Positions 20,156 through 35,528 of a DNA stretch of 64,000 nucleotides are shown in pieces. Numbering within the stretch: the first letter of the stretch is position 1; each line of letters begins with the position of its first letter. This DNA comes from an uncultured Oscillospiraceae bacterium. Its GTDB lineage: Bacteria > Bacillota > Clostridia > Oscillospirales > Ruminococcaceae. The notes beneath the pieces were generated by a model, which saw nothing but the letters and a program-made list of their open reading frames with translations, made no database searches and was not told where the DNA came from. Position numbers and translations under genes: made by a program. The stretch is from NCBI GenBank assembly GCA_934481355.1, contig CAKSPH010000008.1:1-64000 (forward strand), in the 5' to 3' direction.

Positions 20156-20196
20156 AACTTAAAACCGCATATAAATTCAGTATATAAAGTATAAGC
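20156..20196 (+). promoter_or_regulatory. Diverged copy of the P2 promoter-like motif
   Basis: AACTTAAAA at 20156 is followed at exactly the same 23-base offset by AGTATATAAAGTATAAGC, matching 13 of 18 positions of the consensus GGTATANATAGTGAAAGG. The gene at 20220 starts 24 bases later. Confidence 0.45.
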
Positions 20197-20219
20197 CGTT
20201 GACCCGAAGGAGGTAATAA

Positions 20220-20591
20220 ATGTTCATTAACTTTTCAAATCACCCGTCTGCCAGATGGTCGGCAGAGCAGACTGCCGCCGCAATGAAGTTCGGCGATATC
20301 GTCGATCTGCCATTCCCTGACGTACCTGCCGACGCGGATACTGCTGCCGTTTCTGCACTTGCCGATGAATACTGCGCCCGGATACTTTCCCTGGGGGCTG
20401 ACGCGATTCTTGTGCAGGGCGAGATGTCGCTTTCGTTTGCGGTCGCGGGCAGGCTCCAGAGGAACGGCGTTGCTGTTCTGTGCGCGTGCAGCGAGCGGGT
20501 CTGCGAGACTTCCGTGCTTGACGATGGTTCCACGGAGCGGCGTTCTGTTTTCAGGTTCGTGCGGTTCCGCAGGTATCCTCTTCTGGTATGA
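20220..20591 (+). CDS. Small CRISPR-locus protein, Csx15/Csx20-like (possible ring nuclease)
   Basis: The 123-residue protein follows a strong GAAGGAGG site. It opens FINFSNHPSARWSAEQ, followed by GDIVDLPFPDV and a central ILVQGEMSLSFAVAGRLQ segment, and ends in a basic FRFVRFRRY. The opening resembles Csx15 and Csx20, small Rossmann-like proteins of type III systems proposed or shown to degrade cyclic oligoadenylate; I cannot confirm membership without a profile search. It precedes the first CRISPR leader and follows a diverged copy of the P2 motif. If it is a ring nuclease, it would give negative feedback on the signalling pathway. Function uncertain. Confidence 0.6.
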   Translation: MFINFSNHPSARWSAEQTAAAMKFGDIVDLPFPDVPADADTAAVSALADEYCARILSLGADAILVQGEMSLSFAVAGRLQRNGVAVLCACSERVCETSVLDDGSTERRSVFRFVRFRRYPLLV

Positions 20592-20618
20592 TTTTCGCAT
20601 AATAATTCTTTCAGGGTA

Positions 20619-20744: not shown

Positions 20745-20852
20745 GTCTGAACTACCCCCTCACCGAGAGGTGATTGAAACATCATCTCCGAAAGTATCTG
20801 AGAAGCGTCCGGGTCAGTCTGAACTCCCCCCTCACCGCAAGGTGTTTGAACC
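20745..20852 (+). CRISPR. CRISPR array 1, two repeats and one spacer
   Basis: The first 36-base repeat (20745-20780) starts GTCTGAACTACCCC and ends ATTGAAAC, the 8-base tag of type III crRNAs; its stem TCACC/GGTGA closes a GAGA tetraloop. One 36-base spacer follows. The second repeat (20817-20852) is degenerate (GCAA loop, TTTGAACC end), as expected at the distal end. Confidence 0.9.
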
Positions 20853-20856
20853 AAAT

Positions 20857-20889
20857 CCCCGATATCCTAAAAAGATATCGGGGATTTTT
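20857..20889 (+). terminator. Terminator of CRISPR array 1
   Basis: Arms CCCCGATATC and GATATCGGGG, then ATTTTT, directly after the terminal repeat. All four arrays end with a hairpin of this type. Confidence 0.85.
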
Positions 20890-20899: not shown

Positions 20900-20940
20900 A
20901 ACTTAAAAACACAGCTTGTCCGGGTATACATAGTGAAAGG
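20900..20940 (+). promoter_or_regulatory. P2 motif copy 1
   Basis: AACTTAAAA, then GGTATACATAGTGAAAGG starting 23 bases after the first A. No ORF follows before copy 2; a small CTGAGA/TCTCAG hairpin lies between them. Confidence 0.6.
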
Positions 20941-20979
20941 AAAAGCTCCTGAGAAAATCTCAGAAAAAAGTTTCCGAAA

Positions 20980-21020
20980 AACTTAAAAAACCTGCTTGTC
21001 CTGGTATATATAGTGAAAGG
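20980..21020 (+). promoter_or_regulatory. P2 motif copy 2
   Basis: AACTTAAAA at 20980 and GGTATATATAGTGAAAGG at 21003. It precedes the 12- and 37-residue ORFs. Confidence 0.65.
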
Positions 21021-21030: not shown

Positions 21031-21069
21031 ATGGTAAAGAACTTCTGCGATGTTCCTATGTTCCGCTGA
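21031..21069 (+). CDS. Micro-ORF A, 12 residues
   Basis: ATG follows AAAGGAGATGATCAC; the peptide is MVKNFCDVPMFR. It is the first ORF after P2 copy 2. It may be a leader peptide for ORF B. Confidence 0.4.
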   Translation: MVKNFCDVPMFR

Positions 21070-21103
21070 TTTTCCGACATTCACTCTTCAAGGGGGTATT
21101 CAC

Positions 21104-21217
21104 ATGAACAGATATTTTCAGTACTTTGTTTCGGCGTTCCTTTATGAAATGTGGCTCGGCTATCTTTATTCACCGTTTGCCGGCGAGCCTGACTGCTCCT
21201 CTGATTTTTACAAATAA
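21104..21217 (+). CDS. Small ORF B, 37 residues, aromatic
   Basis: It starts after an AAGGGGGT site. The N-terminal half (NRYFQYFVSAFLYEMWLGYL) is strongly hydrophobic and aromatic and could insert into a membrane; the C-terminal part is acidic with one cysteine. The stop codon touches P2 copy 3. Confidence 0.6.
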   Translation: MNRYFQYFVSAFLYEMWLGYLYSPFAGEPDCSSDFYK

Positions 21218-21258
21218 AACTTAAAAAACCGGATATTCCGGGTATAGATAGTGAAAGG
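21218..21258 (+). promoter_or_regulatory. P2 motif copy 3
   Basis: AACTTAAAA at 21218 and GGTATAGATAGTGAAAGG at 21241. It heads the run of ORFs C to F. Confidence 0.65.
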
Positions 21259-21269
21259 TGGTGATCCCC

Positions 21270-21344
21270 ATGCCGGTACCTATTATAGTTGCCATCATCA
21301 GCGGCGTTTCTTCCATTATTGTCGCAGCGATCAATGCTGACTGA
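21270..21344 (+). CDS. Small ORF C, 24 residues, hydrophobic family 1
   Basis: It is preceded by AAAGGTGGTGATCCCC. The body IIVAIISGVSSIIVAAIN is one hydrophobic helix and the end is NAD. It is related to ORFs H, J and L (start M-P/S-V, helix, end with N). Confidence 0.65.
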   Translation: MPVPIIVAIISGVSSIIVAAINAD

Positions 21345-21381
21345 CTTCCTGTTACATTCCGATATGAAAGGCGGTGATATA

Positions 21382-21456
21382 ATGGCTGGCGTTATAATGC
21401 CCAGACACGACCTGTTCGGCGGCTCCCGCCGCAGGCGTCTGTTTATCCTTTACTGA
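21382..21456 (+). CDS. Small ORF D, 24 residues, basic
   Basis: It is preceded by AAAGGCGGTGATATA. The peptide starts MAGVIMPRHDLFGGS and has a run of four arginines before a hydrophobic LFILY end, so it is cationic and amphipathic. Confidence 0.55.
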   Translation: MAGVIMPRHDLFGGSRRRRLFILY

Positions 21457-21486
21457 TTTCTGATGTTCCGAAGGGAGGTGATATCC

Positions 21487-21555
21487 ATGGCTGATCGTGA
21501 CAGCTTCATTCTTGGCGTTCTGGCTGGCATTCTTCTGGGCGGTGAGGACGACTGA
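21487..21555 (+). CDS. Small ORF E, 22 residues, hydrophobic core
   Basis: It is preceded by AAGGGAGGTGATATCC. The core FILGVLAGILLGG lies between charged ends MADRD and EDD, a plausible single short membrane helix. Confidence 0.6.
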   Translation: MADRDSFILGVLAGILLGGEDD

Positions 21556-21590
21556 TCCGCACTTGATTTCAATTTAAGGGGGTGATATTC

Positions 21591-21662
21591 ATGGGTTCTG
21601 TTCTTGGCACCATTATCCGCGCTATCCTTGACGCTGCCGCCGACCCTGTATGCCGTGACTGA
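21591..21662 (+). CDS. Small ORF F, 23 residues
   Basis: It is preceded by AAGGGGGTGATATTC. The helix-prone sequence MGSVLGTIIRAILDAAADP is amphipathic; the end is CRD. Confidence 0.55.
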   Translation: MGSVLGTIIRAILDAAADPVCRD

Positions 21663-21693
21663 TCCGGCTTATTTCCACGAAAGGAAGTGATAA

Positions 21694-21734
21694 AACTTAA
21701 AAAGTTCAGTTTCTTGGGTATATATAGTGAAAGG
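21694..21734 (+). promoter_or_regulatory. P2 motif copy 4
   Basis: AACTTAAAA at 21694 and GGTATATATAGTGAAAGG at 21717. It heads ORFs G to K. Confidence 0.65.
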
Positions 21735-21744
21735 TGGTGATACC

Positions 21745-21813
21745 ATGGATGAGTTCATGAATCCCGGTTCTCAGCGCGACGATTCCCCGTTCGGCCGTTC
21801 TATCTGCTGGTGA
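21745..21813 (+). CDS. Small ORF G, 22 residues, family 2
   Basis: It starts after AAAGGTGGTGATACC. The pattern NP-x-x-x-RDDSP then a C-terminal tryptophan (ending GRSICW) is shared with ORF I. G and H form a pair repeated as I and J. Confidence 0.6.
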   Translation: MDEFMNPGSQRDDSPFGRSICW

Positions 21814-21847
21814 TTTTCTCTTATTCCACGTTAAGGAGGTGAATGTA

Positions 21848-21925
21848 ATGCCTGTTGCTGTTATTACCGCCATCATCGGCGCTGCCGCTTCCATTGCTAT
21901 TGCGGCTGTCAATTCTCAGGAGTAA
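21848..21925 (+). CDS. Small ORF H, 25 residues, hydrophobic family 1
   Basis: It follows CCACGTTAAGGAGGTGA, a sequence repeated before ORF J. The body VAVITAIIGAAASIAIAAVN is a membrane-type helix of the same family as C, J and L. Confidence 0.65.
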   Translation: MPVAVITAIIGAAASIAIAAVNSQE

Positions 21926-21964
21926 TTCCTGATCCCCTGATTTTATATGAAAGGTGGTGATACC

Positions 21965-22033
21965 ATGAGCAAGATCATAAATCCCGATCCCCTGCGCGAC
22001 GATTCTCCGCTCCGTTGGCTCATTTTCTGGTGA
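21965..22033 (+). CDS. Small ORF I, 22 residues, family 2
   Basis: It starts after AAAGGTGGTGATACC. It shares NP, RDDSP and the final tryptophan with ORF G, and ends more hydrophobic (WLIFW). Confidence 0.6.
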   Translation: MSKIINPDPLRDDSPLRWLIFW

Positions 22034-22068
22034 TTTTTCTCTGATTCCACGTTAAGGAGGTGATTTAC

Positions 22069-22152
22069 ATGAGTGCAGGTGTACTTACTGCCATTATCGG
22101 CGCTGCTGCTACTGTCGCTACCGCGATCGTCAATTCCAATTCCGATGACTGA
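22069..22152 (+). CDS. Small ORF J, 27 residues, hydrophobic family 1
   Basis: It follows the same CCACGTTAAGGAGGTGA as ORF H. The helix VLTAIIGAAATVATAIVN is closely similar to that of H, with the acidic end SDD. Confidence 0.65.
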   Translation: MSAGVLTAIIGAAATVATAIVNSNSDD

Positions 22153-22184
22153 ACGCCCGTTTAGGGCAGGGGGAGGTGATAATC

Positions 22185-22214
22185 ATGCGGCTTTTTTCGC
22201 CGGAAAACGGTTGA
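22185..22214 (+). CDS. Micro-ORF K, 9 residues
   Basis: It is preceded by AGGGGGAGGTGATAATC, so it has a full ribosome binding site. The peptide is MRLFSPENG. Its stop overlaps the -35 of leader 2, so it may be a truncated gene cut off by the leader. Confidence 0.35.
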   Translation: MRLFSPENG

Positions 22215-22336: not shown

Positions 22337-22523
22337 GTCTGAACTACCCCCTCACCGAGAGGTGATTGAAACTTCGATTTCGGCTAGTTTTTTCATAATA
22401 ATATCCTCCTAGTCTGAACTACCCCCTCACCGAGAGGTGATTGAAACCTTTCATATTTCGGCAAATTAATGTGTAACTTATGAAGTTGTCTGAACCACCC
22501 CCACACCGCGAGGTGATTGAACC
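22337..22523 (+). CRISPR. CRISPR array 2, three repeats and two spacers
   Basis: Repeats lie at 22337, 22412 and 22488 (36 bases each; the last is degenerate with a TTGAACC end). Spacers are 39 and 40 bases. The first spacer, read as its reverse complement, contains AGGAGGATATTATTATG, that is, a ribosome binding site and start codon, so its crRNA would be antisense to an mRNA start. Confidence 0.95.
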
Positions 22524-22693: not shown

Positions 22694-24145
22694 ATGATGG
22701 CAGAAACCGGATACGGCTGCGTGACTGCGCTTTACGACTGCCGCAGCAAACAGGAATACATCTACCGCACCAACAGGATACGCGAGATCTCCGGCGGTTC
22801 GGAGCTTCTTGCAAACGTCTACGGAATGTTCTTCAGAGCCGCAGAAAAGAAGGGACTCCGCATAAATTCAGACTGGCGCAGCGGCGCGGAATTTTCCGTG
22901 AAAGCATTTGCGGAAAGCGGCTTCGACGGCGAAGTGATATATGAGGGCGGAGGAAATCTCTTTATCATGTACAAAAGCCGTGAGACCTATATCCGTGCTA
23001 ACCGCATTTTCTCCCGCATGCTGCTGGAAAAGACCTACACCATATCAGTGATAGCCGCCTGCGTTGAAACCACCGATAATTTCAAGGAGGACCGAACGCG
23101 CCTTTATAAGGAAAACAGCCGGATAAAGTCCACCGACTGGATATCTGTTCCCTGCAATACCCTGCCGATAACGCAGGTAGACAGGGATAATTTTATGCCC
23201 ATCGTAAAGAAAGAGGACAACTGCTCCCTTTCGCGGGAAAGCGTACTGAAACGCAAGGCGTTTGAGAAGTCTGCGGAAATCGGCGAGATGTTCCTTGACT
23301 ATATCTCCGGCGAGGAAAATAAGGGCACCGAAAGTCTGCTTGCCGTTATCTATGTTGACGGCAACGCAATGGGCAAAAAGTCGAAGGCGTGCACCGAGAA
23401 TATCAGCGGCTACACGGAATGCGCTGCCGCGCTCCGTAAGTTCTCGTTAGGCACGGACAAGTCGTTCGTGGAACGTCCGATAAGCGCTATAAAGGCAAAG
23501 CTCGCCGAACGAACCGATGGCAGGCACAAGTTCCGCAGAGTCATCGCCGGCGGCGACGAGATAACCCTGATATGCAACGCAAGAGCGGCGCTCGATGTCG
23601 TAACTGCATATTTCAGCGCGCTCGACGAGGAAAACCGCTCCCTGCCTGACGACCAGAAAAATTACGCCTGCGCAGGCATTGCAATAGCGCACAGCCATGC
23701 GCCGTTCTCCGATGTTTATGAGATCGCGGAACAGTGCTGCGAATCCGGAAAAAAGAAGTCAAGAGCGCTGGACAGCCGTGTGAATTACGTGGATTTCCAC
23801 TTCTGTCGTTCTGGTATCACCAACGATATGGAAACTATCCGGGAAACACAGGAAAAGGGACTGACCGCGCGCCCGTATGAGGTTTCGGCTGAACTGAGTG
23901 AGTTTATCAGCTCCGGACAGCGCCTGAGTGAAATAGGCAGAGCAAATATAAAGGATCTGGCGGCGGCAATGATAAAGGGCGATTCCTACTACCGCTTCGA
24001 GGTCGAGAGGATAAAGTCCAGATACCCCGACGCCGGGCTTGACAGCAGCGATGAAAAGCTCCGCAGGCTGATTTTTGATATCGCGCAGGTGTATGATATC
24101 TGGTTTGCAAAGCCGGAGTCCGATGAACAGGAGGCGTCCGAATGA
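22694..24145 (+). CDS. cas10: Cas10, large subunit of the type III-D complex
   Basis: The 483-residue protein is short for Cas10 and has no N-terminal HD nuclease domain. Two palm domains are visible: the first with IYVDGNAMGKK near residue 218 and the second with RVIAGGDEITLIC, a GGDE at residues 286-289 in place of the usual GGDD. An early GGSELLANVYG resembles the first palm's ligand region. Cas10 makes cyclic oligoadenylate from ATP when target RNA is bound; the retained GGDE suggests this activity is kept, while absence of HD argues against DNA cleavage by Cas10. It starts the operon behind the P1 promoter and overlaps the next gene by four bases. An alternative ATG lies at 22697. Confidence 0.93.
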   Translation: MMAETGYGCVTALYDCRSKQEYIYRTNRIREISGGSELLANVYGMFFRAAEKKGLRINSDWRSGAEFSVKAFAESGFDGEVIYEGGGNLFIMYKSRETYIRANRIFSRMLLEKTYTISVIAACVETTDNFKEDRTRLYKENSRIKSTDWISVPCNTLPITQVDRDNFMPIVKKEDNCSLSRESVLKRKAFEKSAEIGEMFLDYISGEENKGTESLLAVIYVDGNAMGKKSKACTENISGYTECAAALRKFSLGTDKSFVERPISAIKAKLAERTDGRHKFRRVIAGGDEITLICNARAALDVVTAYFSALDEENRSLPDDQKNYACAGIAIAHSHAPFSDVYEIAEQCCESGKKKSRALDSRVNYVDFHFCRSGITNDMETIRETQEKGLTARPYEVSAELSEFISSGQRLSEIGRANIKDLAAAMIKGDSYYRFEVERIKSRYPDAGLDSSDEKLRRLIFDIAQVYDIWFAKPESDEQEASE

Positions 24146-26088
24146 AATGTGAATTAAGAATAACGCTGAAGTCGGATATGTGCTCCGCAAGCGGAGACGG
24201 TTTTTCGCTGTCGATAGATACCGATGTCAGCTATGACAGCCACGGCTTTCCGGTGATACCTTCGAGGCGCATAAAGGGCTGTATGCTGGAGTCCGCAAAG
24301 TACATAGGCGCACAGAATATCGGTGAGATATTCGGCGTTTCCGGTACCAGCCGCGGTTCGCTGAGAATAGGGAACGCAGTCCCGGAGGGCTACGCTTCCC
24401 TCTGCGCGGAGGCTGAAAATTCCGGGAAGAACGCGCAGCAGATACTTGCGCTGTTCACTTCCGTGAAAGCCTCGACCGCCATCGAGGACGACACGGCGAA
24501 GAATGAGAGTCTGCGCTTTATGCGCGCGGTGAACCACTATTCGCCGTTTGACGGGTCGGAGATGGTTTTCACCGCGCCGGTCGAGATAGATGAACAGTAT
24601 TTTGACGAACTTTCGAGAATATGCAGGGCTGTCCGGAATATCGGCTACAAGCGCACCCGCGGATTCGGCGCGGTCAGGTGCGGGCTTTTAAGGTCAGAGC
24701 AGTCCTGCGTAAGTACCGTTTCCGGAAAGATAACAGATGATGAAGCGGTCTACGAGCTTCGCTATTCAATACGCAACGAATCCACGCTTATGCTCCCGGG
24801 AAGCAATTCTTCCGAAACGGGCGACTATATCAGCGGAACTTCCATTATGGGTTTCTTTGCAAATCAGTATCTGAAAAATCACTCTGACGACAGCGATTTT
24901 GAGGAAATGTTCCTCCGGCATGGTGTGATTTTCTCGAATCTGTATATCACCTCTCCGGAGGGAACCGCCGCTTATCCCGCGCCTGCCGCCATCGCAAAGG
25001 ACAAGACTCAGTCCGTTGAAAGCGGTAAGACAGAATATGCGAATCTTCTGACGGCTGACGAAGATCCAGGCAGGATACTGAAACCGTTGAAAAGCGGATA
25101 TTTCGCCGCCGGGTCGGAAATCAAAGTTCAGACCGAGACCGTATATCATCACAGTACGGGTAATGACAGTACTCTCTATACGCAGACCTGTATCTGTCCC
25201 GGTCAGGTGTTCAGCGGAACTGTTACCGGAAAGGGAAAATACCTGCGGAATATCGCAGAAGCTCTCTCCGGCGGCATTGTGACCGTCGGCAGGAGCAAGA
25301 CCGCACAGTACGCGGAATGCAGCGTTCTGTACGCTGAGCTTAAACCGCAGGAGCAGAAACAGCTTTCTGTCTCCGGAGGAGAAAAGATAGCGGCGGTGTT
25401 CTGTTCTGACGCTCTTTTCACCGAAGACTGCGGAGTATATACGACTGACTTCAGCGAGGTTTGCGGTCAGCTCGGAATAAAGAACGCCGATACCGCTAAG
25501 TCGTTCATGAAGTATAAGACGATCATGGGTTATATGTCCGCTGGAAACTACAAGAAACCGCATATCCGTGCGGTCGCCGCAGGAAGCACGATATGCTTCA
25601 CGGCTGAGAGTGCCTGCACACTGTCGGAGTTCGCGTATTTCGGCGCAAAGAACGGCGAGGGCTTCGGAATGGTTCGTTTTGTAAAGGCGGACGAGCTTAT
25701 GAAACTCGGGGAAAGCGGATTTGTTTCCGGAAAGGTAAATGCGGAGACAGACGGCAGGCTCACTGAACTCCTCAAAAAGAACAATACGACCGAAGAAATG
25801 CGCAGTTCCGCCATAGACTATGCGTTCAGCAACAGAAGCGCGCTTGTCGTGTTGACTTCATCGTTTGTCGGCAGAGTGCTGCTGATGATACGTCAGGCGA
25901 GCGATTTTAGCGATCTTATAAAGCGGATAGACTCCGTCAAGACAGAGGAAAAAAAGAAAAAGGCGCACGATATTGCTATGACCGCCGAAAAATACAAATA
26001 CGGCAGGGACTGGCGCGAGTATCTTGAAACCGTATTCCTGCTGGGTAAATACTTCCTCAGAACAGCTGACAGGAAGGAGGAAGAATAA
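24142..26088 (+). CDS. Cas7-Csx10 fusion with a helical C-terminal extension
   Basis: This 648-residue protein joins two RAMP units. Residues 1-180 are Cas7/Csm3-like, with IDTDVSYDSHGFPVIPSRRIKG (the first Asp is the candidate target-RNA cleavage residue) and the glycine-rich YKRTRGFGAVRC. Residues about 210-545 match Csx10, the Cas5-group subunit of type III-D, with DYISGTSIMGFFANQYL, TLYTQTCICPGQVFSGTV and GGIVTVGRSKTAQY. The last 95 residues are alpha-helical and charged with no RAMP motif. Since no separate cas11 is seen, this tail could act as the small subunit; that is inference. It overlaps cas10 (ATGA) and is followed three bases later by the next RAMP gene. Confidence 0.85.
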   Translation: MKCELRITLKSDMCSASGDGFSLSIDTDVSYDSHGFPVIPSRRIKGCMLESAKYIGAQNIGEIFGVSGTSRGSLRIGNAVPEGYASLCAEAENSGKNAQQILALFTSVKASTAIEDDTAKNESLRFMRAVNHYSPFDGSEMVFTAPVEIDEQYFDELSRICRAVRNIGYKRTRGFGAVRCGLLRSEQSCVSTVSGKITDDEAVYELRYSIRNESTLMLPGSNSSETGDYISGTSIMGFFANQYLKNHSDDSDFEEMFLRHGVIFSNLYITSPEGTAAYPAPAAIAKDKTQSVESGKTEYANLLTADEDPGRILKPLKSGYFAAGSEIKVQTETVYHHSTGNDSTLYTQTCICPGQVFSGTVTGKGKYLRNIAEALSGGIVTVGRSKTAQYAECSVLYAELKPQEQKQLSVSGGEKIAAVFCSDALFTEDCGVYTTDFSEVCGQLGIKNADTAKSFMKYKTIMGYMSAGNYKKPHIRAVAAGSTICFTAESACTLSEFAYFGAKNGEGFGMVRFVKADELMKLGESGFVSGKVNAETDGRLTELLKKNNTTEEMRSSAIDYAFSNRSALVVLTSSFVGRVLLMIRQASDFSDLIKRIDSVKTEEKKKKAHDIAMTAEKYKYGRDWREYLETVFLLGKYFLRTADRKEEE

Positions 26089-26090
26089 CA

Positions 26091-27299
26091 ATGGAGCGTG
26101 TATATTACAGGTACATTTTCAGACTGAAAAGCCCTCTGGCGCTCGGTTCCGGGATAAGCGACAATACCGATTCTGACGTTCTCCTGGACAGCCGCGGGGT
26201 GCCGTATATCCCGGCTACCTCTATTGCCGGAGTTATCCGTCACAGCGTTGACACTGATACTGCCGAAAAGCTTTTCGGAACTATCCAGAACGGCAGCGGC
26301 GAGATGAGCAAAGTGCTGACCTACGACGCAGTCTGCACCGGAGAAAATACCATATCTGTCCGCGACAGCGTAAGGCTGAAAGACAAGGTGGCGGAGGATA
26401 CAGGAAAGTTCGATTTTGAGGCGGTCGAGACCGGAGCGGAGTTCAGAGGCTATATCGAGCTTGCGGACTGCGGAGCTGACGGCGACAGCGTAATGACCGA
26501 AGCGTTCCAGAAGATAAACGCAGGATTGCTGAGATTCGGACATAAAACGACAAGAGGGTACGGAACGGTCGCTGTTGAAGGACTCCAGCGCATAGAATTC
26601 AGCAATGTTGACGACTGGCTGGATTTCGATATGTTCGACGATGAGTGCTGGAAAAACGCTCAGGCTGTGGAACTGACGAAGCCCTCCGACCTCACAAGAA
26701 TAACGCTTTCGCTGAAACAGCAGGGCGGAATTTCAATACGCAGGTATTCGACCTCCGTTTCTGACGGAGAGAATGCAGCGCCGGACTATGAGCAGCTTTC
26801 CCTGCGCAGCGGAGTTCCGGTGATACCCGGTACAAGCTGGGCGGGCGCATTCCGGGCAAGATTCTGCGAGTTCGCAGGAGAAGAAAAAGTAGATGAGCTT
26901 TTCGGCCATATCGAGAAAAATATCAAGCAGGCGAGGAATAAGAAGTCGGCGGTATATTTCAGCGAAAGTATGCTTAACGGCGGTTACTACAAGACCGTTA
27001 CGAGAAATTCCATTGACAGATTCACTAGCGGCACGAACGACGGCGCACTGTATACAGAGAAAACCTATTACGGCGGAGGCACCGAGCTTGAGCTGCTGTT
27101 CACGGAAAAGCAGCACACTGACGTACAGCGTGCTGTCCTCGCAGTAATAGCCGACCTTGACAACGGCTTCCTGTCCGTTGGCGGACTGACTTCGGTAGGG
27201 CGCGGGATATTCTCGGTAGAAAAGCTCTGCATCAACGGTCAGGACATGACTGAAAGCTTCAGGAATTACGATTTTGACAAGCTGCTGGAGGTGTGGTGA
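26091..27299 (+). CDS. Double Cas7 (RAMP-RAMP) backbone subunit
   Basis: The 402-residue protein contains two Cas7-like domains. The first (1-165) has DTDSDVLLDSRGVPYIPATS and ends in LLRFGHKTTRGYGTV; the second (about 200-385) has SGVPVIPGTSWAGAFRARF and ends in FLSVGGLTSVGRGIF. Such fused Cas7 proteins form part of the crRNA-binding backbone in type III-D. The Asp in the first domain lies where Csm3 has its target RNA nuclease residue. It begins at an ATG after GGAGGAAGAATAAC and overlaps csx19 by one base (TGATG). Confidence 0.88.
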   Translation: MERVYYRYIFRLKSPLALGSGISDNTDSDVLLDSRGVPYIPATSIAGVIRHSVDTDTAEKLFGTIQNGSGEMSKVLTYDAVCTGENTISVRDSVRLKDKVAEDTGKFDFEAVETGAEFRGYIELADCGADGDSVMTEAFQKINAGLLRFGHKTTRGYGTVAVEGLQRIEFSNVDDWLDFDMFDDECWKNAQAVELTKPSDLTRITLSLKQQGGISIRRYSTSVSDGENAAPDYEQLSLRSGVPVIPGTSWAGAFRARFCEFAGEEKVDELFGHIEKNIKQARNKKSAVYFSESMLNGGYYKTVTRNSIDRFTSGTNDGALYTEKTYYGGGTELELLFTEKQHTDVQRAVLAVIADLDNGFLSVGGLTSVGRGIFSVEKLCINGQDMTESFRNYDFDKLLEVW

Positions 27300-27802
27300 T
27301 GTACGATTTTATCTGTGAAAACGGCAGGGTTGAGGAATCCGGACTTGAGGCGCTTTTTAACTTGAAGGCGCAGTCCGGAATGATATCCTACCGCCAGTAT
27401 ACCACCGGGATATTCTGCGATGAATTCAGCGGCAATGTCGGTGACGCGGCGCATCTTCTTGAGATCCGGCTGTTCAATGAAAATGCGGAGATAAGGGCTT
27501 TCCGCCCTGAGCTGGGAATTCCGTTCACATGGCGGATTATCGATGACAGCAGATTTCGCAAAGCGCTTTCCGGTGACGAAACATTTGAGGACAGAACATA
27601 CACCGAACAGCAGTATCTTGACATCGACTCTATTAAATCGTCCGGCAGAAATTATACTGCGACAGGCGGCGGGCATTACACGCTTCCGGTGGAGAACGCC
27701 GAAAAGCTGGAGATACGGAATTACTGCATTTATGACGATAACGGCATACTGAAAATAGTGGATTTCAGGATAGTACGTATCCTTGCGAAAGGAGAACAGT
27801 AA
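27299..27802 (+). CDS. csx19: Csx19, type III-D accessory subunit
   Basis: The protein of 167 residues has the Csx19 pattern: a strand pair HLLEIRLFNENAEIRAFRP, then RIIDDS, a TATGGGHYTLP turn and a C-terminal IRNYCIYDDNGILKIVDFRI. Csx19 is diagnostic for type III-D operons; its role in the complex is not well defined. ATG 27299 shares its A with the upstream stop; two GTG codons just before are less likely starts. It ends one base into the next start (AATGG). Confidence 0.85.
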   Translation: MYDFICENGRVEESGLEALFNLKAQSGMISYRQYTTGIFCDEFSGNVGDAAHLLEIRLFNENAEIRAFRPELGIPFTWRIIDDSRFRKALSGDETFEDRTYTEQQYLDIDSIKSSGRNYTATGGGHYTLPVENAEKLEIRNYCIYDDNGILKIVDFRIVRILAKGEQ

Positions 27803-29589
27803 TGGACGACAGATTTGTTAATCCTTACACCTTTGTCCCGCTTCCGAAAGGCGGCGTTAAACGCAGCGACTGCACCGCAGTGAGAGAGCCGGTTTTCAGC
27901 GGGGAGATAAAGTGCAGGCTCATCACAAAAACGCAGATAGCCGTGCCGGATATCCTGAAAAATCCCGTTCCGGACAACGTGGAAAGAACCGAGCCGAAGA
28001 AATACGACTTCTTCACGCTTGACGGAAAAGCGGCTATCCCCGGCAGCGGAATACGCGGAGTTATCCGCAGCGTATACGAGGTGCTGACGGATTCCTGTAT
28101 GCATCTTAACGACAAGGATCATTTATACACCAGATTGTATAAAGAAAAGCCGGGAATAATAACTTACGACCGCAATCAGAATAAATATATACTTCACGAA
28201 TCTGTTCGCTTGCGTGACAAGACTGGAAAAGTACACAGAACTGGTGAAAAGGTAAGTTATTTTCTTTACGATGCAGAAGAAAAAAAGCCAAAAGACCTGA
28301 TCAAAGGTTATTCTCTTGACGGTGAAAAGAATGGTGTATATATTCATGCGGGTCCCTTTGAAAACTCTCCTAGTCCGAGCGTTTTTAAATATATTTCTTC
28401 CGGGAAAGAGATAGATGAAAAATATATTTACTGCCTGATAGAAAATGTCAGAATGTATGAGGGAAAAAACGCGAAAGATCATAAGAATACCATCAAGGAA
28501 GAATATGAATCTGCAATCAGAGAAATGAAGACGAACGAAGGCTGGCTTCCCGTGTGGTATTTCTATGATCGGTATACTCAAAAATACTATTTTGCGCCGT
28601 CGCAGCGTTCAAGAGCAGTGTTTGTAAATAGTCTTGGTTATGTTGTTGAAAAAGCGGGAATGATGGCTTGCAGCAAATCAAATCTATGTTGTGCTGCTTG
28701 CGCACTGTTTGGGTTCATTGGGAATAAATCAGGTGACTCGGATACTCGTGTCAGCCATGTCAGATTTACAGACGCGATATGTGAGAACCCGGATTGCTTT
28801 GACGGATCATATATTCTTCCTATACTCGGCGAACCTAAACATTCCGCGTTTGAATTTTATCTCACAGGGCATAACGACAGATCATTCTGTCCTGATAATC
28901 CTGATGTCACTATCGCTGGCAGAAAATTTTACTGGCACGCTCCGCAGAATGTCATCACCAGTGATGATGAGAAAGCAAAAGAACAGCCCGCGATGGCAAA
29001 CAGAATGCAACTTGTCAGAAATGGTGAAGAGTTCACATTCAGTGTGTTCTTTGATAACATAACGGACGACCAGCTGAAGAAACTGGTGTTCGCGCTGAAT
29101 CTCGGCGAAAATTACGCGGGCTCTGCACGCTGCCACAAGATAGGTCACGGAAAGCCGATCGGTCTTGGTTCGGTCAAGATAACTGTGAGCAGCATAACAA
29201 AACGCAGCTATGAAAACGGTATATATTCCGTGAACGATGTTACCGAAGAGATCATAGGTGCTGCGAATACTGGAATGTTCCCGCCGACTCCGGAATTTAT
29301 CGCATTTCTTACAAAGGCAGTCAACCTTAATTACGTTGCAAAAAAGAATGTGCATTATCCACGGACGAGCCAAAGTGCGGATATATTTGCATGGTTTCAG
29401 AAAAACAGGGACTTAAAACGCAGTAGTAATTACATTACTATCTACAATCATTTGCCAAGAATAACTGATGCTGACCAGACTCTGCCAGTCGATCCTGTTC
29501 CGATTCAGAAATACAGCTCAGGCAGGAATCATGGCGGCGGTTTCAATAAAAGTCATAGCGGCTTTCAACACAAAGATTACAGACGATAA
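27802..29589 (+). CDS. TIGR03986-family RAMP protein of type III-D
   Basis: The 595-residue protein begins with FVNPYTFVPLPKGG and continues with AAIPGSGIRGVIRSVYEVLTDSC-like sequence, the characteristic start of the TIGR03986 RAMP family. A cysteine group near residue 300 (ACSKSNLCCAACALFGF) and a late KIGHGKPIGLGSVKI glycine-rich segment are typical. The C-terminus is basic and glycine-rich. The middle third (about 28.1-29.0 kb) is clearly more AT-rich than the flanking cas genes, which suggests replacement of an internal segment by recombination. It lies between csx19 and cas6 in the same operon. Confidence 0.88.
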   Translation: MDDRFVNPYTFVPLPKGGVKRSDCTAVREPVFSGEIKCRLITKTQIAVPDILKNPVPDNVERTEPKKYDFFTLDGKAAIPGSGIRGVIRSVYEVLTDSCMHLNDKDHLYTRLYKEKPGIITYDRNQNKYILHESVRLRDKTGKVHRTGEKVSYFLYDAEEKKPKDLIKGYSLDGEKNGVYIHAGPFENSPSPSVFKYISSGKEIDEKYIYCLIENVRMYEGKNAKDHKNTIKEEYESAIREMKTNEGWLPVWYFYDRYTQKYYFAPSQRSRAVFVNSLGYVVEKAGMMACSKSNLCCAACALFGFIGNKSGDSDTRVSHVRFTDAICENPDCFDGSYILPILGEPKHSAFEFYLTGHNDRSFCPDNPDVTIAGRKFYWHAPQNVITSDDEKAKEQPAMANRMQLVRNGEEFTFSVFFDNITDDQLKKLVFALNLGENYAGSARCHKIGHGKPIGLGSVKITVSSITKRSYENGIYSVNDVTEEIIGAANTGMFPPTPEFIAFLTKAVNLNYVAKKNVHYPRTSQSADIFAWFQKNRDLKRSSNYITIYNHLPRITDADQTLPVDPVPIQKYSSGRNHGGGFNKSHSGFQHKDYRR

Positions 29590-29607
29590 GCAGACGGGGG
29601 TGTCCTT

Positions 29608-30321
29608 TTGATATATCAGTCGGATTTTATAACGGACGATATAGACGCGTCAGAGCTGTATTCCGGGCTTGGGGTGAAGCTCCACGGCGCCGCCATGAAG
29701 CTGATAAAAAGCAGCTACGCTGAATTCCTCCATCAGAAGGAACACCACCCATTCTCTATTTACACAGTACCGGACGGAGGCAGTTTTATCATCAGGGTAT
29801 CCGCGCTGAACGACGAGGCTGCGTGTATTATCGAAGGCTTCCGGAAAGCGAAGCAGCTCAGAATCTACGGCATTGAACAGCCGGTGCGTATCGCAGGGGA
29901 AAATCCTGCTCCGGCGATATGCGCCGACAGCGCCGGGGAGCTTATCCGGAGGAATTCCTGCCGGATGGTGTTTGCTACTCCGGCTATGTTCAAGTCGCAG
30001 GGTCGGGTGTGCTGTTTCCCGGAGATAGAGCGGTATTTCTATTCCGTGATATGCAAATTCAACAAGTTTGAGGGCGTGGAGCTTTCCTATGACGAATTCT
30101 GCGAAGCATTCGCCGCCGGGGAGACCGGGGATTATCAGCTTCGCCGTGAAGATTACAACGTCAGCGGGAATATATTCCACGGCATGGCCGGATATGTTGA
30201 CTACCGCTTTCCGAAAGACCAGGAGCAGTCGCGGCTTCTGAAAACCGTGTTTGCCTACGCGACCTACTGCGGAGTCGGCGGCAAGACCGGCATGGGTATG
30301 GGCGGGTTCATTATTGCCTAG
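29608..30321 (+). CDS. cas6: Cas6 crRNA-processing endoribonuclease
   Basis: This 237-residue RAMP-fold protein starts at a TTG behind CGGGGGTG. It ends with the Cas6 glycine-rich loop GVGGKTGMGMGGF. An early H in KLHGAAMKLI and the FATPAMFKSQGR segment fit the fold. Cas6 cuts the CRISPR transcript within each repeat, leaving the ATTGAAAC tag. It is the last cas gene before the long array. No cas1 or cas2 follows, so new spacers would need adaptation genes from elsewhere. Confidence 0.9.
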   Translation: MIYQSDFITDDIDASELYSGLGVKLHGAAMKLIKSSYAEFLHQKEHHPFSIYTVPDGGSFIIRVSALNDEAACIIEGFRKAKQLRIYGIEQPVRIAGENPAPAICADSAGELIRRNSCRMVFATPAMFKSQGRVCCFPEIERYFYSVICKFNKFEGVELSYDEFCEAFAAGETGDYQLRREDYNVSGNIFHGMAGYVDYRFPKDQEQSRLLKTVFAYATYCGVGGKTGMGMGGFIIA

Positions 30322-30452: not shown

Positions 30453-31386
30453 GTCTGAACCACCCCTACACCGCTAGGTGATTGAAACTCATGCAAGTAC
30501 CTGTATGTAAGGCTGCGTGGACTCACCCAGTCTGAACCACCCCTACACCGCTAGGTGATTGAAACACCTTAGTAAGATTCTCTATGCGAGTAATTTCGCT
30601 CGCGTCTGAACCACCCCTACACCGCTAGGTGATTGAAACCTCGATAGCGGCTCTTGCCTGTTCGTCCGCGCCCGAGCCGGTCTGAACTACCCCTACACCG
30701 CTAGGTGATTGAAACTTGTAACTGCTGCTGTAGTGTTCAGCTCTGATGCGATAGTCTGAACTACCCCTACACCGCTAGGTGATTGAAACTTTCTAGTAAC
30801 GTTCATGTAATACCTCTTTCCGCCGTGTTGTCTGAACTACCCCTACACCGCTAGGTGATTGAAACAGCATTAACCGGAATAGGACCTGCGGAAATATTAT
30901 TGAGTGTCTGAACTACCCCTACACCGCTAGGTGATTGAAACCGGACGGAAACGAATCCGCAGTGACTCTTACCGGGGTGGAGTCTGAACTACCCCTACAC
31001 CGCTAGGTGATTGAAACGCTCCGCTCTTCTTGCCTCAAAAGTAGTTGCGTTTGCCAGTCTGAACTACCCCTACACCGCTAGGTGATTGAAACGTTAAGAA
31101 AGGTGACTTTGTTGCTGCGGGAAAAAAGAGTCTGAACCACCCCTACACCGCTAGGTGATTGAAACTCAAGATAACTTTCCGCCTCTGCGTCGCTTATCTC
31201 CGGCAGTCTGAACCACCCCTACACCGCTAGGTGATTGAAACACCGAATTAGGGATAACAACTCGTTGATTGAATGTCTGAACTACCCCTACACCGCTAGG
31301 TGATTGAAACAGCATTAACCGGAATAGGACCTGCGGAAATATTATTGAGTGTCTGAACTACCCCTACACCGCTAGGTGATTGAACA
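30453..31386 (+). CRISPR. CRISPR array 3, thirteen repeats and twelve spacers
   Basis: The 36-base repeat starts GTCTGAAC, carries CACC-GCTA-GGTG and ends ATTGAAAC. Position 9 varies between C and T in blocks (CCC TTTTTT CC TT along the array). Spacers are 33-41 bases. Spacer 6 (30866-30905) and spacer 12 (31311-31350) are identical over 40 bases. The last repeat is degenerate (TTGAACA). The fifth spacer's reverse complement reads GAAAGAGGTATTACATG, again a ribosome binding site with a start codon. Confidence 0.98.
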
Positions 31387-31429: not shown

Positions 31430-31470
31430 AACTTAAAAATTCAGCACAGCCGGGTATATATAGTGAAAGG
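31430..31470 (+). promoter_or_regulatory. P2 motif copy 5
   Basis: AACTTAAAA at 31430 and GGTATATATAGTGAAAGG at 31453, directly after the array terminator. It heads ORF L and the GIY-YIG gene. Confidence 0.65.
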
Positions 31471-31481: not shown

Positions 31482-31568
31482 ATGTCCGTTCCTGCATGTA
31501 TTATTGCTGCTGGTATTTCTGGTGCGTGTGCGATCACTGCCGCCATCATCAACAACGCCGGCAAGTGA
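31482..31568 (+). CDS. Small ORF L, 28 residues, hydrophobic family 1
   Basis: It follows AAAGGTGGTGATAGAA. The body ACIIAAGISGACAITAAIIN is a membrane-type helix with two cysteines, and the end is NAGK. It is a member of the same family as C, H and J although it lies 9 kb away beyond the cas operon. Confidence 0.65.
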   Translation: MSVPACIIAAGISGACAITAAIINNAGK

Positions 31569-31611: not shown

Positions 31612-31947
31612 ATGTCTCTTTACAAGCCCGGCAGACCTACCGAGGTCAAGCCCCTTGACCCCTCCAATACCCGCAAGGTTCCCTCGGCAAAGGGCGAATA
31701 CCGCATTATCAATTCCAACACCCGTGAGATCGTTTATGTCGGCGTCAGCAAGGATCTCAACCGCCGTATGCACGATCACATCAGATCCGGCAAGCTGAGC
31801 GGCGACAATTCCATTTTTGCCTACAAGCAGGCGGACGGCAGGGCTTCTCAGGCGCGCATCAACGACCACGAGCGCTCCAAAATCGAGCAGCACAAGCCGG
31901 AGCTGAATCAGCGCGCAGGCGGCGCCGGCAGACCCTACAAGCGCTGA
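31612..31947 (+). CDS. GIY-YIG domain protein
   Basis: The 111-residue protein has KGEYRIINSNTREIVYVGVS (GIY-like and YIG-like strands), then DLNRRMHDHIRSG with the conserved arginine and histidine, and a late KIEQHKPELNQRAGG in the place of the catalytic glutamate and substrate asparagine. This is the GIY-YIG nuclease core with little else, so DNA or RNA cleavage is plausible. It starts after GAAAGGAGTTCAAT and shares a transcript with ORF L behind P2 copy 5. It could be a nuclease effector of the regulon. Confidence 0.8.
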   Translation: MSLYKPGRPTEVKPLDPSNTRKVPSAKGEYRIINSNTREIVYVGVSKDLNRRMHDHIRSGKLSGDNSIFAYKQADGRASQARINDHERSKIEQHKPELNQRAGGAGRPYKR

Positions 31948-32080: not shown

Positions 32081-32263
32081 GTCTGAACCACCCCCTCACC
32101 GCGAGGTGATTGAAACTCACTTTCCGCCAAGCCCCCTCAGAATTCTGTCTATTTCAGTCTGAACCACCCCCTCACCGCGAGGTGATTGAAACTTATATAA
32201 AAGTAAACTTGGTAAAAATGACATTAAGTCTGAACCACCCCCTCACCGCGAGGCGCTTGAACA
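32081..32263 (+). CRISPR. CRISPR array 4, three repeats and two spacers
   Basis: Repeats lie at 32081, 32157 and 32228 with a GCGA tetraloop version of the stem (TCACC-GCGA-GGTGA). Spacers are 40 and 35 bases. The last repeat is degenerate (GGCGCTTGAACA). Confidence 0.95.
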
Positions 32264-32308: not shown

Positions 32309-32349
32309 AACTTAAAAATCGCAGGGGAACTGGTATATATAGTGAAAGG
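32309..32349 (+). promoter_or_regulatory. P2 motif copy 6, upstream of the CARF/sigma operon
   Basis: AACTTAAAA at 32309 and GGTATATATAGTGAAAGG at 32332. It lies 126 bases before the CARF-HEPN gene, so the operon that encodes the sigma factor could be autoregulated. Confidence 0.65.
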
Positions 32350-32405: not shown

Positions 32406-32419
32406 TTTTGTGGTAAAAT
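32391..32419 (+). promoter_or_regulatory. P1 promoter of the CARF/sigma operon
   Basis: TTGACA, 17 bases, TAAAAT with TGTGG; the same class as the leaders and the cas promoter, so basal expression would match them. Confidence 0.8.
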
Positions 32420-32474: not shown

Positions 32475-33965
32475 ATGAAGAACATTCTCATTTCCTGCAT
32501 AAGCAAATTCGACAGAAATAAACTTGATCAGGGCGCATATACCTACCAGAACCACGATCTTACAGTCACCGCATTCCAGACCAACGAAGCCTGCCTGAAA
32601 TACCTGCTGAGCAGGTTGGGCGCAGACAATAAGCTTGACGTACATATCCGCGTGCAGAGCAACGACGTAGCCGCTCCCGGGGATTTTACAATGGAGTACC
32701 TCAACGGCGAGATAGGCCGTTTCTGCGGGGAAAACGGATTTACAGTCCCGCAGTACTTTGATGTGTTCCTCGGCGAGGACGAGCAGTACCACAGGTTCGA
32801 CAGGGTGCTAAGCGAGATATCTAAGGAGGTCCAGCGAATTGCCGCAGACGACCCTGATATCACGATTCATCTCGATATGGCGGGCGGAAAGCGTGATAAC
32901 TTCATCTTCATTCAGCTTCTGACGAAGCTGCTGTCCTATTACGGCTACTCGATACACGCTTATTACGCTGACGCAGATTTCAGAACAAAAAGCGGCACTA
33001 TCGTGAATACGGACCGCTCATTTCAGCATATGGAAGTGCTGGACGCAGTGAACGATTTCGTACAGCACGGCTCCGCTACTGCGCTGAGAGCGGCGTTCAG
33101 CAAAGTAGAAAGTCCGTCGGTCAAAGCGCTGCTGAAAACCATGGAGGAATTCAGCGATTCTATCCAGCTTTGTGCAACGGATCTTTCAAATAAGCTGAAA
33201 CAGCTCGATCAGCAGCTTGAACAGGTCGAGAAATATGTCGAGGACGACAGCAACGGTCTGTTCATGATAAAGGCGATGATACCGCTGATACGCAGCAAGT
33301 TCCATATCTCGCATGATTCCGGCAGCCGCGGTATTATAGGTATCGTCCGCTGGTGCCTTGAAAACGGACTGGTTCAGCAGGCGCTCACCATCTACAATGA
33401 GAATATCGCAGATATCATCTATTATGAGAAGCTGATCTCAATAGATATGAAGGTGCATGGCACTGAGATAAACCGCATGATGAAGGACCGCCACCCGTCA
33501 GAGGAAAATAATACGCGTCTGCTTTATATCCTCGGAAAAACGTTTGACAATATGTTCGATTCGCCGGACGAGGCCGACAAGGAACTATGCTCAACGCTCG
33601 GCAGATACAGGAAGAAATCCAAGGAGCGCACCGACAGGTACGGTAACCGGAAATACAACAACTATGAGTGGACGATCGCCGCTATCTTTTTCGATGAGAA
33701 GTACCTTCCTGACGGAGTAAGGCTGAATGTCCCGTCAGAGTTAATGCAGCGCATATTCAGCGACAGCAGGTTTGCGGTTTGCGCAAGGAACCGTGTGAAT
33801 CACGCTTCAAACATGGACACCTATGAGAATCTTATCATTTCGCTGTTCAATGAGAAGCGATATCCGTTTTCGTCTTACCCGAATACGTTTACCCCTAAGA
33901 ATGTGACCAAGGATATGAAGCGTGCGCTTGATAATCTCGAAAAAGCGCTTAATGGAAAGGAATGA
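32475..33965 (+). CDS. CARF-HEPN ribonuclease, Csx1/Csm6-like
   Basis: The 496-residue protein has an N-terminal CARF domain (MKNILISCISKFDRNK, then ITIHLDMAGGKRDNFIFIQL near residue 140) that should bind cyclic oligoadenylate. A helical region follows, and the C-terminal HEPN domain carries the R-x4-H active site in RNRVNH (R438 to H443). Proteins of this class become RNases when Cas10 supplies the ligand, causing dormancy or death. It begins the three-gene operon behind P2 copy 6 and a P1 promoter, with an AGAAAGG site before the ATG. The next gene's ATG at 33962 overlaps its stop. Confidence 0.88.
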   Translation: MKNILISCISKFDRNKLDQGAYTYQNHDLTVTAFQTNEACLKYLLSRLGADNKLDVHIRVQSNDVAAPGDFTMEYLNGEIGRFCGENGFTVPQYFDVFLGEDEQYHRFDRVLSEISKEVQRIAADDPDITIHLDMAGGKRDNFIFIQLLTKLLSYYGYSIHAYYADADFRTKSGTIVNTDRSFQHMEVLDAVNDFVQHGSATALRAAFSKVESPSVKALLKTMEEFSDSIQLCATDLSNKLKQLDQQLEQVEKYVEDDSNGLFMIKAMIPLIRSKFHISHDSGSRGIIGIVRWCLENGLVQQALTIYNENIADIIYYEKLISIDMKVHGTEINRMMKDRHPSEENNTRLLYILGKTFDNMFDSPDEADKELCSTLGRYRKKSKERTDRYGNRKYNNYEWTIAAIFFDEKYLPDGVRLNVPSELMQRIFSDSRFAVCARNRVNHASNMDTYENLIISLFNEKRYPFSSYPNTFTPKNVTKDMKRALDNLEKALNGKE

Positions 33966-33970
33966 TATTT

Positions 33971-34609
33971 ATGAAGCATTTTATTACTACGATAAGCCTT
34001 GCAAAGGATCTGAAAACTACGATATATAAAAACGCTGAAAGCGTTGAATTCCTTGAAACTGACCGGGAATATTCCAATCCAATACTTGTTCCGATACAGA
34101 ATCTATCGGAGAGCGGTGAGAAAATCAAAGTGACCGTGATCCTCACCAGCAAGACCAGTCCGTTTGTAAAGCAGAATTACGAGCATTTCGTGGGTGAACT
34201 CAACAGACTGCGCGATGAGATAGGCTTTGATTACGGTGAGATAAACGTCATAGAAGCAAGCTATGACGAGTCCTCCTCCAAGCACTTGAAGCTTTTTGAG
34301 AGCATAATAAACAGTATCGGAAGCGATGAGCTTATCATCGCCGACATCACTTACGGCAACAAGCCAACTTCGATGGCGCTCCAGCTTGCACTGACATACT
34401 CGTACCTTTACGGCGACAACACCGCTGTAAAGGCGCTGGTTTACGGTGAGTACAACCACGATACCAACTGTTCAAATATTTTCGATGTTTCCGCGCTGTT
34501 TTACATCAACAATATTATGGGCAGGATCTCTTACGCAAAGCCCAGGGATCCCCTTGCATTCATCAGACCGCTTCTGAACCACGGAGAGGACGGCGATAAG
34601 AATGAGTAA
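33971..34609 (+). CDS. CARF-only protein, candidate sensor for the sigma factor
   Basis: The 212-residue protein starts at ATG 33971, ten bases after GGAAAGG; ATG 33962 is too close to that site. It starts HFITTISLAKDLKTTIY and has DELIIADITYGNKPTSMALQ near residue 120, a CARF-type ligand loop, followed by YLYGDNTAVKALVYGEY. No HEPN, nuclease, protease or HTH domain follows: the protein is a bare CARF domain. Its last codons overlap the sigma-like gene by eight bases, implying coupled translation and a stable ratio. A sensor or anti-sigma role is inference; a ring nuclease is an alternative. Confidence 0.75.
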   Translation: MKHFITTISLAKDLKTTIYKNAESVEFLETDREYSNPILVPIQNLSESGEKIKVTVILTSKTSPFVKQNYEHFVGELNRLRDEIGFDYGEINVIEASYDESSSKHLKLFESIINSIGSDELIIADITYGNKPTSMALQLALTYSYLYGDNTAVKALVYGEYNHDTNCSNIFDVSALFYINNIMGRISYAKPRDPLAFIRPLLNHGEDGDKNE

Positions 34610-35528
34610 CGTTCAGACTATCAACCATCTGGCGAAATATATTGTTGAAAAATGCGGCAATAATATAGACGTGGCTGGTAAAAAAGCCAAGCGTGAATTC
34701 GATCAGCTGTATATTAATATTATTTCAGAAGTGGCCATAACTTTCCGCAACAATCCGGATTTTTATTACTTTGAAGATGCAATAACTGACACATTCTTGA
34801 AAGTGTTTGAAAAATACGATCCGCAGTATGATTTCTGGAACTTCTTTGTCAGCTCGCTCAGGAAAAAGGCTATATCCCGTATAGAAAAGCGTAATCGTGA
34901 GAGATACGAAAAGTCCCATAGCAACGACGAAGAAAAATGCATACAGAACGTCAGAAAAATAGAATACAGCTTAGACGAAGCAATATCCGGTGATACTGAA
35001 GGTCTGACTGTTAAAGATTCCGTAGAAGATACGACTGATCAGACAGACAGGGTGATTAATGATGTCGCATATGAGGTGTTCTATCTTGCTCTGGTCGATT
35101 ACTGCCTCGGGCGGAAAGCTGTTTATTCAAAGAAAAAGACGTTCAACTACACGCCTCTGTTTTTTACCGATAAGGTGGCTTTTGATATCTTCGCCGAACG
35201 CGATGGTAAGATGATAGGTCTTATCAGGCGCAACAATATCAAATTCAACGAGGCGTCCGACATTGACTTTCTGAATACGTTCGTTAACAAGCACTGCGAT
35301 GAGCTTTCCGACGCAGACGGGGCAGATTATCTTCCGCTTTCGCTTTTCACAGGAAAGGAAAAGGACGCCGACAAGCCCTGTCGTACAAAGGGGAAGCTTC
35401 CGTATGCGGTTATAGAAAAATACCTTGAATCTGCATTTGGTAAGCATGTTTCAGATTCCGCCGTGAAGCAAAAAAAGGACGAATTTGACGCTGCTTGTAA
35501 GTCTGTTGGAGAAAGATGGGTATTATAA
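34602..35528 (+). CDS. Sigma-70-like factor in a type III CRISPR operon
   Basis: The 308-residue protein has a sigma region 2 signature at about residues 57-100: FEDAITDTFLKVFEKYDP, then WNFFVSSLRKKAISRIEKRN, matching the helices that bind core polymerase and the -10 element. YSLDEAISGDTEGLTVKDS at 122-140 resembles the linker that follows region 3 in primary-type sigma factors. The C-terminal 130 residues are unusual; a helix-turn-helix-like SDSAVKQKKDEFDAA near 285 may replace region 4. It is AT-richer than the cas genes. The overlap with the CARF gene and the presence of a non-standard promoter motif nearby suggest that it reads P2. Not previously recognised by me in this combination. Confidence 0.72.
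   Translation: MSNVQTINHLAKYIVEKCGNNIDVAGKKAKREFDQLYINIISEVAITFRNNPDFYYFEDAITDTFLKVFEKYDPQYDFWNFFVSSLRKKAISRIEKRNRERYEKSHSNDEEKCIQNVRKIEYSLDEAISGDTEGLTVKDSVEDTTDQTDRVINDVAYEVFYLALVDYCLGRKAVYSKKKTFNYTPLFFTDKVAFDIFAERDGKMIGLIRRNNIKFNEASDIDFLNTFVNKHCDELSDADGADYLPLSLFTGKEKDADKPCRTKGKLPYAVIEKYLESAFGKHVSDSAVKQKKDEFDAACKSVGERWVL

Follow-up and report, generated by a model that had tools for sequence, protein, structure and literature searches.

A CARF-only protein and a sigma-70-family relative predicted to switch a promoter-like motif at a type III-D CRISPR locus

How might a type III CRISPR locus that encodes a sigma-like protein and a series of very small genes join them into one response? The question is raised by a stretch of DNA from an uncultured Oscillospiraceae bacterium (assembly GCA_934481355.1, contig CAKSPH010000008.1, positions 1-64,000), referred to here at its full length of 64,000 nt as the window. 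A gene for a CARF-only protein lies in its type III-D CRISPR locus next to a gene for a sigma-like protein, and a bipartite, promoter-like motif occurs in seven copies nearby. The CARF-only and sigma-like pair is predicted, with about an even chance of being right, to switch a private regulon from these copies. The predicted regulon contains the micro-open reading frames (micro-ORFs) at 21031-22214, the micro-ORF at 31482 with a GIY-YIG gene, csx20, and the csx1/CARF/sigma operon. The motif copies are as follows.

20156..20196, plus strand: diverged copy upstream of csx20, 39 nt from TATA to ATG
20900..20940, plus strand: copy 1, no mismatch, directly behind the terminator of array 1 and in tandem with copy 2
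20980..21020, plus strand: copy 2, no mismatch, upstream of micro-ORFs 21031 and 21104
21218..21258, plus strand: copy 3, no mismatch, upstream of four micro-ORFs
21694..21734, plus strand: copy 4, no mismatch, upstream of five micro-ORFs
31430..31470, plus strand: copy 5, no mismatch, upstream of a micro-ORF and the GIY-YIG gene
32309..32349, plus strand: copy 6, no mismatch, upstream of the csx1/CARF/sigma operon and before a sigma-A-like promoter at 32391-32419

The first-pass annotation of this DNA had reported six copies of AACTTAAAA-N14-GGTATANATAGTGAAAGG with an identical offset between the halves. All six were recovered exactly and on the plus strand (0 expected), no further match was found at up to three mismatches on either strand of the 64 kb, and 100 dinucleotide shuffles of the window gave none. 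Alignment of the six copies extended the motif slightly, to 29 invariant positions arranged as AAAACTTAAAAA-N13-GGTATA-N-ATAGTGAAAGG. The spacer between the conserved blocks held no invariant column, and the sole variable base of the TATA block lies inside GGTATA-N-ATAGTGAAAGG. The claim of a seventh copy with the same offset was also borne out: a matrix derived from the six exact copies (36 columns, spacer set to zero) gave 25.6 bits for the site at 20156, whereas the runner-up in the window had 9.3 bits and the best of 40 simulated 64-kb strands 18.7. It retained the two cores and their offset and was diverged elsewhere. The seven copies lie on one strand, within 12 kb, at the type III-D locus, and no base pair was predicted by RNAalifold on the aligned copies. 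With their constant spacing, two conserved blocks and free spacer, the copies look more like promoters than like RNA elements or copies of a cassette, and the sequence comparison supports the view of the motif as a promoter class of its own, restricted in the window to the CRISPR locus.

The placement of the copies was as first described, that is, after array terminators and before small ORFs, the GIY-YIG gene, the CARF/sigma operon and csx20. Terminator hairpins of -21.6, -18.4 and -20.8 kcal/mol directly precede three of them. The distance from TATA to the ATG of a micro-ORF is 26-27 nt in four copies (20980, 21218, 21694 and 31430), and the next listed gene follows at 106 and 141 nt behind the copies at 20900 and 32309, respectively. 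A second promoter type, TTGACA-N17-TAAAAT, had been assigned to the arrays, cas10 and the CARF operon; it is exact upstream of array 1, cas10, array 3 and the operon, and present as one-base variants at arrays 2 and 4. The csx1/CARF/sigma operon carries both a TTGACA-type site and a motif copy, which suggests a basal and an inducible promoter, and an alternative sigma factor that regulates itself would be expected to have such a copy upstream of its operon. The suggested likeness to extracytoplasmic function (ECF) promoters was found to be loose: AACTT matches the core of the ECF -35 element, the distance from AACTT to TATA is a few bases above that usual for ECF promoters, and no ECF-type -10 element was evident in the motif. 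Between copies 1 and 2, a hairpin at 20946-20966 was read by the scan as a minus-strand terminator.

The putative switch and its neighbors are encoded by three genes.

32475..33965, plus strand: csx1-like CARF-HEPN gene, with RNRVNH at residue 438 (PADLOC CARF_HEPN PDLC01829, E 3.2e-31)
33962..34609, plus strand: CARF-only gene, predicted signal sensor (PADLOC CARF2--CARF PDLC01821, 234.7 bits)
34602..35528, plus strand: gene for the sigma-like protein of 308 amino acids, with sigma region 2 and the linker behind it, and a C-terminal half without recognised fold

Profile comparison of the 34602 protein family with four proteins on sigma region 2 gave an E value of 1.1e-13, three of these four, which were found using the same sigma profile, passing the sigma70-ECF cut-off. 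This result supports the assignment of the protein as a sigma-70-family relative in region 2, and to that extent the earlier designation as a sigma factor stands; no region 4 was recognised. The protein search returned 19 sigma relatives, one of them a chimera, and the profile search five more distant ones. The alignment (A2) consisted of the window protein and eight of the 19; near-duplicates (P0001, P0008 and P0010), a partial sequence (P0004), truncated or frameshifted sequences (P0012 and P0014-P0018) and the chimera (P0019) were left out. No sigma relative was confirmed in viral contigs (8 and 78 candidate stretches from few short peptide patterns), and none was found in the plasmid or phage collections. 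Comparison of the sigma profile with solved structures by sequence gave three chance Kelch-type matches alone (E 0.056-0.99).

The partner was confirmed as CARF-only, the domain spanning residues 4-207 of 215, in an overlapping operon with the sigma-like gene. The sigma-like gene overlaps the CARF gene by 8 bases, and the CARF gene, read from its first ATG, shares 4 bases with csx1; the majority of the aligned relatives start three residues later, at the fourth residue (33971). Forty-two CARF relatives were found in the protein search, two of them at 50-51% identity, and GNKPT was invariant across the 21 sequences of the alignment (A4, the window CARF and 20 of the 42). A CARF/sigma pair (P0025 and P0006), for which the longest contig of each is 2197 bases, gave a hint of linkage. 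CARF-only relatives were absent from viral contigs (40 candidate stretches), and the CARF profile gave no match to solved structures by sequence. In Treponema saccharophilum plasmid pTS2 (L001:8004-9590), which has no RAMP genes, a CARF (TM1812-type) gene 26% identical to that of the window is followed 18 bases on by a gene for a 309-residue protein. The best profile alignment of this protein with the sigma family fell at region 2 and was not significant, and the protein was not confirmed as a sigma factor by BLASTP (E 0.099), by hhalign (probability 0.1%) or by family matching, which gave no sigma family; no other relative of it or of its CARF neighbor was found in plasmids.

The genes behind the motif copies, other than the operon, are listed below.

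21031..21217, plus strand: micro-ORFs 21031-21069 (12 amino acids) and 21104-21217 (37 amino acids), from the ribosome-site scan and hydropathy
21270..21662, plus strand: micro-ORFs 21270 (24 amino acids, hydrophobic), 21382 (24 amino acids, RRRR), 21487 (22 amino acids, hydrophobic) and 21591 (23 amino acids), with ribosome-site matches of 6-9 bases
21745..22214, plus strand: micro-ORFs 21745, 21848, 21965, 22069 and 22185, as two duplicated DDSP/hydrophobic pairs and a 9-residue ORF, with ribosome-site matches of 6-11 bases
31482..31568, plus strand: micro-ORF of 28 amino acids, hydrophobic, alignable with 21270, 21848 and 22069
20220..20591, plus strand: csx20, predicted ring nuclease (PADLOC PDLC01397, E 4.1e-33, residues 1-119 of 123)
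31612..31947, plus strand: GIY-YIG nuclease-like gene (Pfam PF01541, E 2.2e-5, 25.1 bits, cut-off 22.6)

Ten ATG-started ORFs of 9-27 amino acids with a ribosome-site match of at least 6 bases were found within 1.47 kb on one strand; the same criteria applied to the whole window, these ten included, gave 22 on the plus strand and 2 on the minus strand. The micro-ORFs number 12 when 21104, which is below the ribosome-site threshold, and 31482 are counted. Four alignable hydrophobic peptides (21270, 21848, 22069 and 31482) share the consensus MPVxIITAIISGAASIAxAAINS. In one duplicated pair 10 of 19.7 silent sites were changed versus 10 of 49.3 replacement sites, and in the other 6.5 of 13.2 versus 14.5 of 52.8. 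That replacement changes lie below silent ones in both pairs suggests, on small numbers, that the peptide matters, and the micro-ORFs look like real genes. The first-pass annotation had called their products membrane peptides, which fits part of the set: mean hydropathy over the best 15 residues was at least 1.8 in 5 of the 12 and marginal (1.5) in 21591, and the remaining peptides are lower, being charged, of the W/DDSP kind or, for the one of 37 residues, aromatic (1.0). No Pfam family was found for any of the ten peptides, PHROGs gave weak matches alone (3/10, E 0.03-0.38), and the DNA of the region had no match in plasmids or phages. The csx20 product scored 35.9 bits on the NCBIfam Csx20 equivalog, under the cut-off of 70, and no relative of the GIY-YIG protein was found in the plasmid collection.

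From this arrangement, the sigma-like protein is likely to be the switch that would read the motif and turn the gene set on during virus attack. Once virus RNA is recognised, a cyclic oligoadenylate would be synthesised by Cas10, probably cA4; this signal was chosen because in PMC12409355 a Csx20 is described as degrading cA4, and cA3 at higher enzyme concentration. The CARF protein would bind the signal and free or activate the sigma-like protein. Transcription would then begin at the motif, where AACTT would serve RNA polymerase as the -35 element and GGTATANATA as the -10 element. Roughly half of the micro-ORF products are hydrophobic, and the set may act on the membrane of the cell itself, leading to a growth stop or a block of virus release. 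The response would be reinforced by the motif copy upstream of the operon and ended by the copy upstream of csx20; with csx20 driven from the motif as well, the response would limit itself. The complete scheme, in which a second-messenger-gated sigma factor under CARF control without proteolysis fires membrane-active micropeptides and a nuclease, with positive feedback and a ring nuclease brake, is put forward tentatively and is rather doubtful as a whole.

Several results weigh against these proposals. The sigma70-ECF score of the 34602 protein was 24.7, under the curated cut-off of 42.9; Pfam gave nothing at E 0.001 and, when relaxed, an E value of 0.0029, under the cut-off, in two of five sigma-like proteins tested, and the distant relative P0062 matched no family. 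Sigma region 4, the expected reader of a -35 element, was looked for in the C-terminal half, which showed no family or fold match on a structure model of confidence 66.5. Foldseek with the full model returned 44 matches at E up to 10 and none at 0.001, the nine best rows being chains of transcription complexes followed by unrelated folds. No sigma relative was found in 84,980 species genomes (165 candidate stretches from two short peptide patterns). The motif, searched with 21 fixed bases, occurred in none of the same genomes and in no viral contig; the absence of the exact motif from the species genomes is consistent with linkage to the sigma gene and proves none. Behind the copies at 20900 and 32309, no small ORF with a ribosome-site match of at least 5 bases precedes the next listed gene, and both copies retain GTGAAAGG, although a simple promoter with no small gene behind it would not need it. 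The hydrophobicity mark was missed by 7 of the 12 peptides. Finally, the CARF relatives outnumber the 19 sigma relatives, so that the CARF protein may also occur without a sigma-like partner.

The motif could instead be a housekeeping sigma promoter with a poor -35 element under another DNA-binding protein, the sigma-like protein acting on other genes. TATANA with CTTAAA 17 bases upstream does form a weak sigma-A-like arrangement, a small HTH_17 gene adjoins the operon, and no part of the sigma-like protein could be identified as recognising a -35 element. This explanation is nevertheless unlikely, since a sigma-70 scan called none of the seven sites on the plus strand (in one stretch the scan found 4 sites versus 3.9 in shuffles, so that weight is given to its near-consensus sites alone) and since 29 invariant positions in two blocks, with a variable base within the TATA block, are unlike the TTGACA-N17-TAAAAT promoters of the locus. 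The sigma-like gene is the simpler explanation for the confinement of the motif, within the window, to the locus of that gene. A regulon that is real and free of CRISPR signal control, with the sigma-like protein regulated otherwise and the CARF protein acting with Csx1 alone, is improbable. The link between CARF and sigma is one of operon position alone, and the excess of CARF relatives would be in keeping with a CARF role apart from sigma; on the other side, the two genes overlap, and a motif copy before csx20, a member of a signal-degrading family, fits a regulon driven by the signal.

The motif might also be a non-functional remnant, left behind when a micro-gene cassette was recently duplicated. 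The micro-ORF region does contain real tandem duplications (76-77% identity, families D12 and D15), and GAAAGGTGGTGAT is also present at micro-ORF 21965, which has no motif. However, a copied cassette would not readily account for the lack of any invariant column between the two blocks, for copies that precede unrelated genes up to 12 kb apart, or for the retained cores and offset of the otherwise diverged 20156 copy, and we give this origin little credence. It is likewise very unlikely that the transcripts matter and the peptides do not, as for a CreT-like RNA toxin that the CRISPR effector would repress by way of the short arrays on either side, with the sigma-like protein incidental. Micro-ORFs with very strong ribosome sites between short arrays, one with a degenerate last repeat, do recall CreTA, yet none of the 17 spacers matched at 62% or more in the micro-ORF runs or motif copies (among the three best ungapped places on each strand), the effector genes identified belong to type III whereas CreTA uses type I, and in both duplicated pairs replacement sites have changed less than silent ones.

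The predicted CARF-sigma switch was compared with known systems from published descriptions. In CalpL/CalpT/CalpS, a SAVED-Lon protease sensor cuts an anti-sigma factor (PMC11417357 and PMC11229360). In both arrangements an alternative sigma factor links a type III signal to a transcriptional response, here by prediction; unlike in that system, the partner here is CARF-only, the C-terminal half of the 308-residue sigma-like protein is unrecognised, and a predicted local regulon can be seen with a motif of its own. Neither 'regulon' nor 'promoter' appears as a word in the main text of PMC11417357. Neither a Lon nor a SAVED family was found by Pfam at E 0.001 in the 10 locus genes and 20 further window ORFs, or by PADLOC among the 10 locus genes (for one RAMP, among the best 25 of 40 rows). 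CARF regulators that carry their own helix-turn-helix (HTH), such as Csa3, or act via sigma-54, such as RtcR, are described in PMC4012209. They resemble the present case in that the CARF proteins are thought to act on transcription and differ in that the CARF protein here lacks a second domain and is paired with a sigma-70-family relative. CreTA shares tiny genes, toxic in CreTA, beside short, degenerate repeats; it depends on a type I effector and repression by the CreA guide, whereas the present locus is type III, has no guide match among its 17 spacers and carries a dedicated promoter-like motif. Membrane effectors such as Csx23 share the presumed membrane target; Csx23 is reported to bind the signal itself, whereas peptides of 9-37 residues are probably too small to do so and would be switched on by transcription. 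Among the matches listed for open PMC articles, a collection with preprints and most subscription journals outside it, no title or start of abstract presented a CARF-only protein with a sigma factor or a CRISPR micropeptide regulon.

If the prediction holds, CRISPR immunity would command a dedicated transcriptional program, with every gene and promoter of it readable in a single 15-kb stretch, and signal, switch, output and brake could be tested together. It would also add a class of defence products, of 9-37 residues, small enough that gene callers commonly skip them, and other CARF-only genes without a known role would be predicted to partner sigma factors.

The remaining features of the locus are the effector genes and the four arrays.

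20745..20852, plus strand: array 1, two repeats, the second degenerate, then a terminator hairpin
22337..22523, plus strand: array 2, three repeats
22694..30321, plus strand: type III-D effector genes (cas10, cas5/cas7 RAMPs, csx19 and cas6), from family matches
30453..31386, plus strand: array 3, 13 repeats, then a terminator hairpin
32081..32263, plus strand: array 4, three repeats, then a terminator hairpin

Type III-D was assigned from these genes, with matches to PADLOC families PDLC02057, PDLC02091, PDLC02111 and PDLC02109 and with TIGR03984 and TIGR03986 over the cut-off. Cas10 has GGDE at residue 286, and a search of it for an HD or HH pair found none. In array 3, one 40-base spacer is present twice (30866-30905 and 31311-31350). 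Each array leader (20670, 22262, 30378 and 32006) contains a 26-codon ORF, MxxxKCFxxIQIxxCxIxMxxRGFAV, conserved in length and sequence, the end of which falls within the first repeat of the array. Upstream of csx20, an ORF at 19685-20194, with no Pfam family, has its final codons overlapped by the diverged motif copy and resembles the tail of a serine recombinase.

The Rfam scan of the whole window matched no family. Elsewhere in the window, 1146-8441 is a polymorphic-toxin-like region: its RHS-repeat genes have ends of the HINT and DNA/RNA nuclease kinds, and a HINT gene there has an AHH-like end that scores below the cut-off. An AAA ATPase gene with a WHD domain and a Pvc16_N gene at 60033-63557 suggest part of a contractile injection system. 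At 36429-38533, an amidoligase-like gene adjoins a class II glutamine amidotransferase-like gene.

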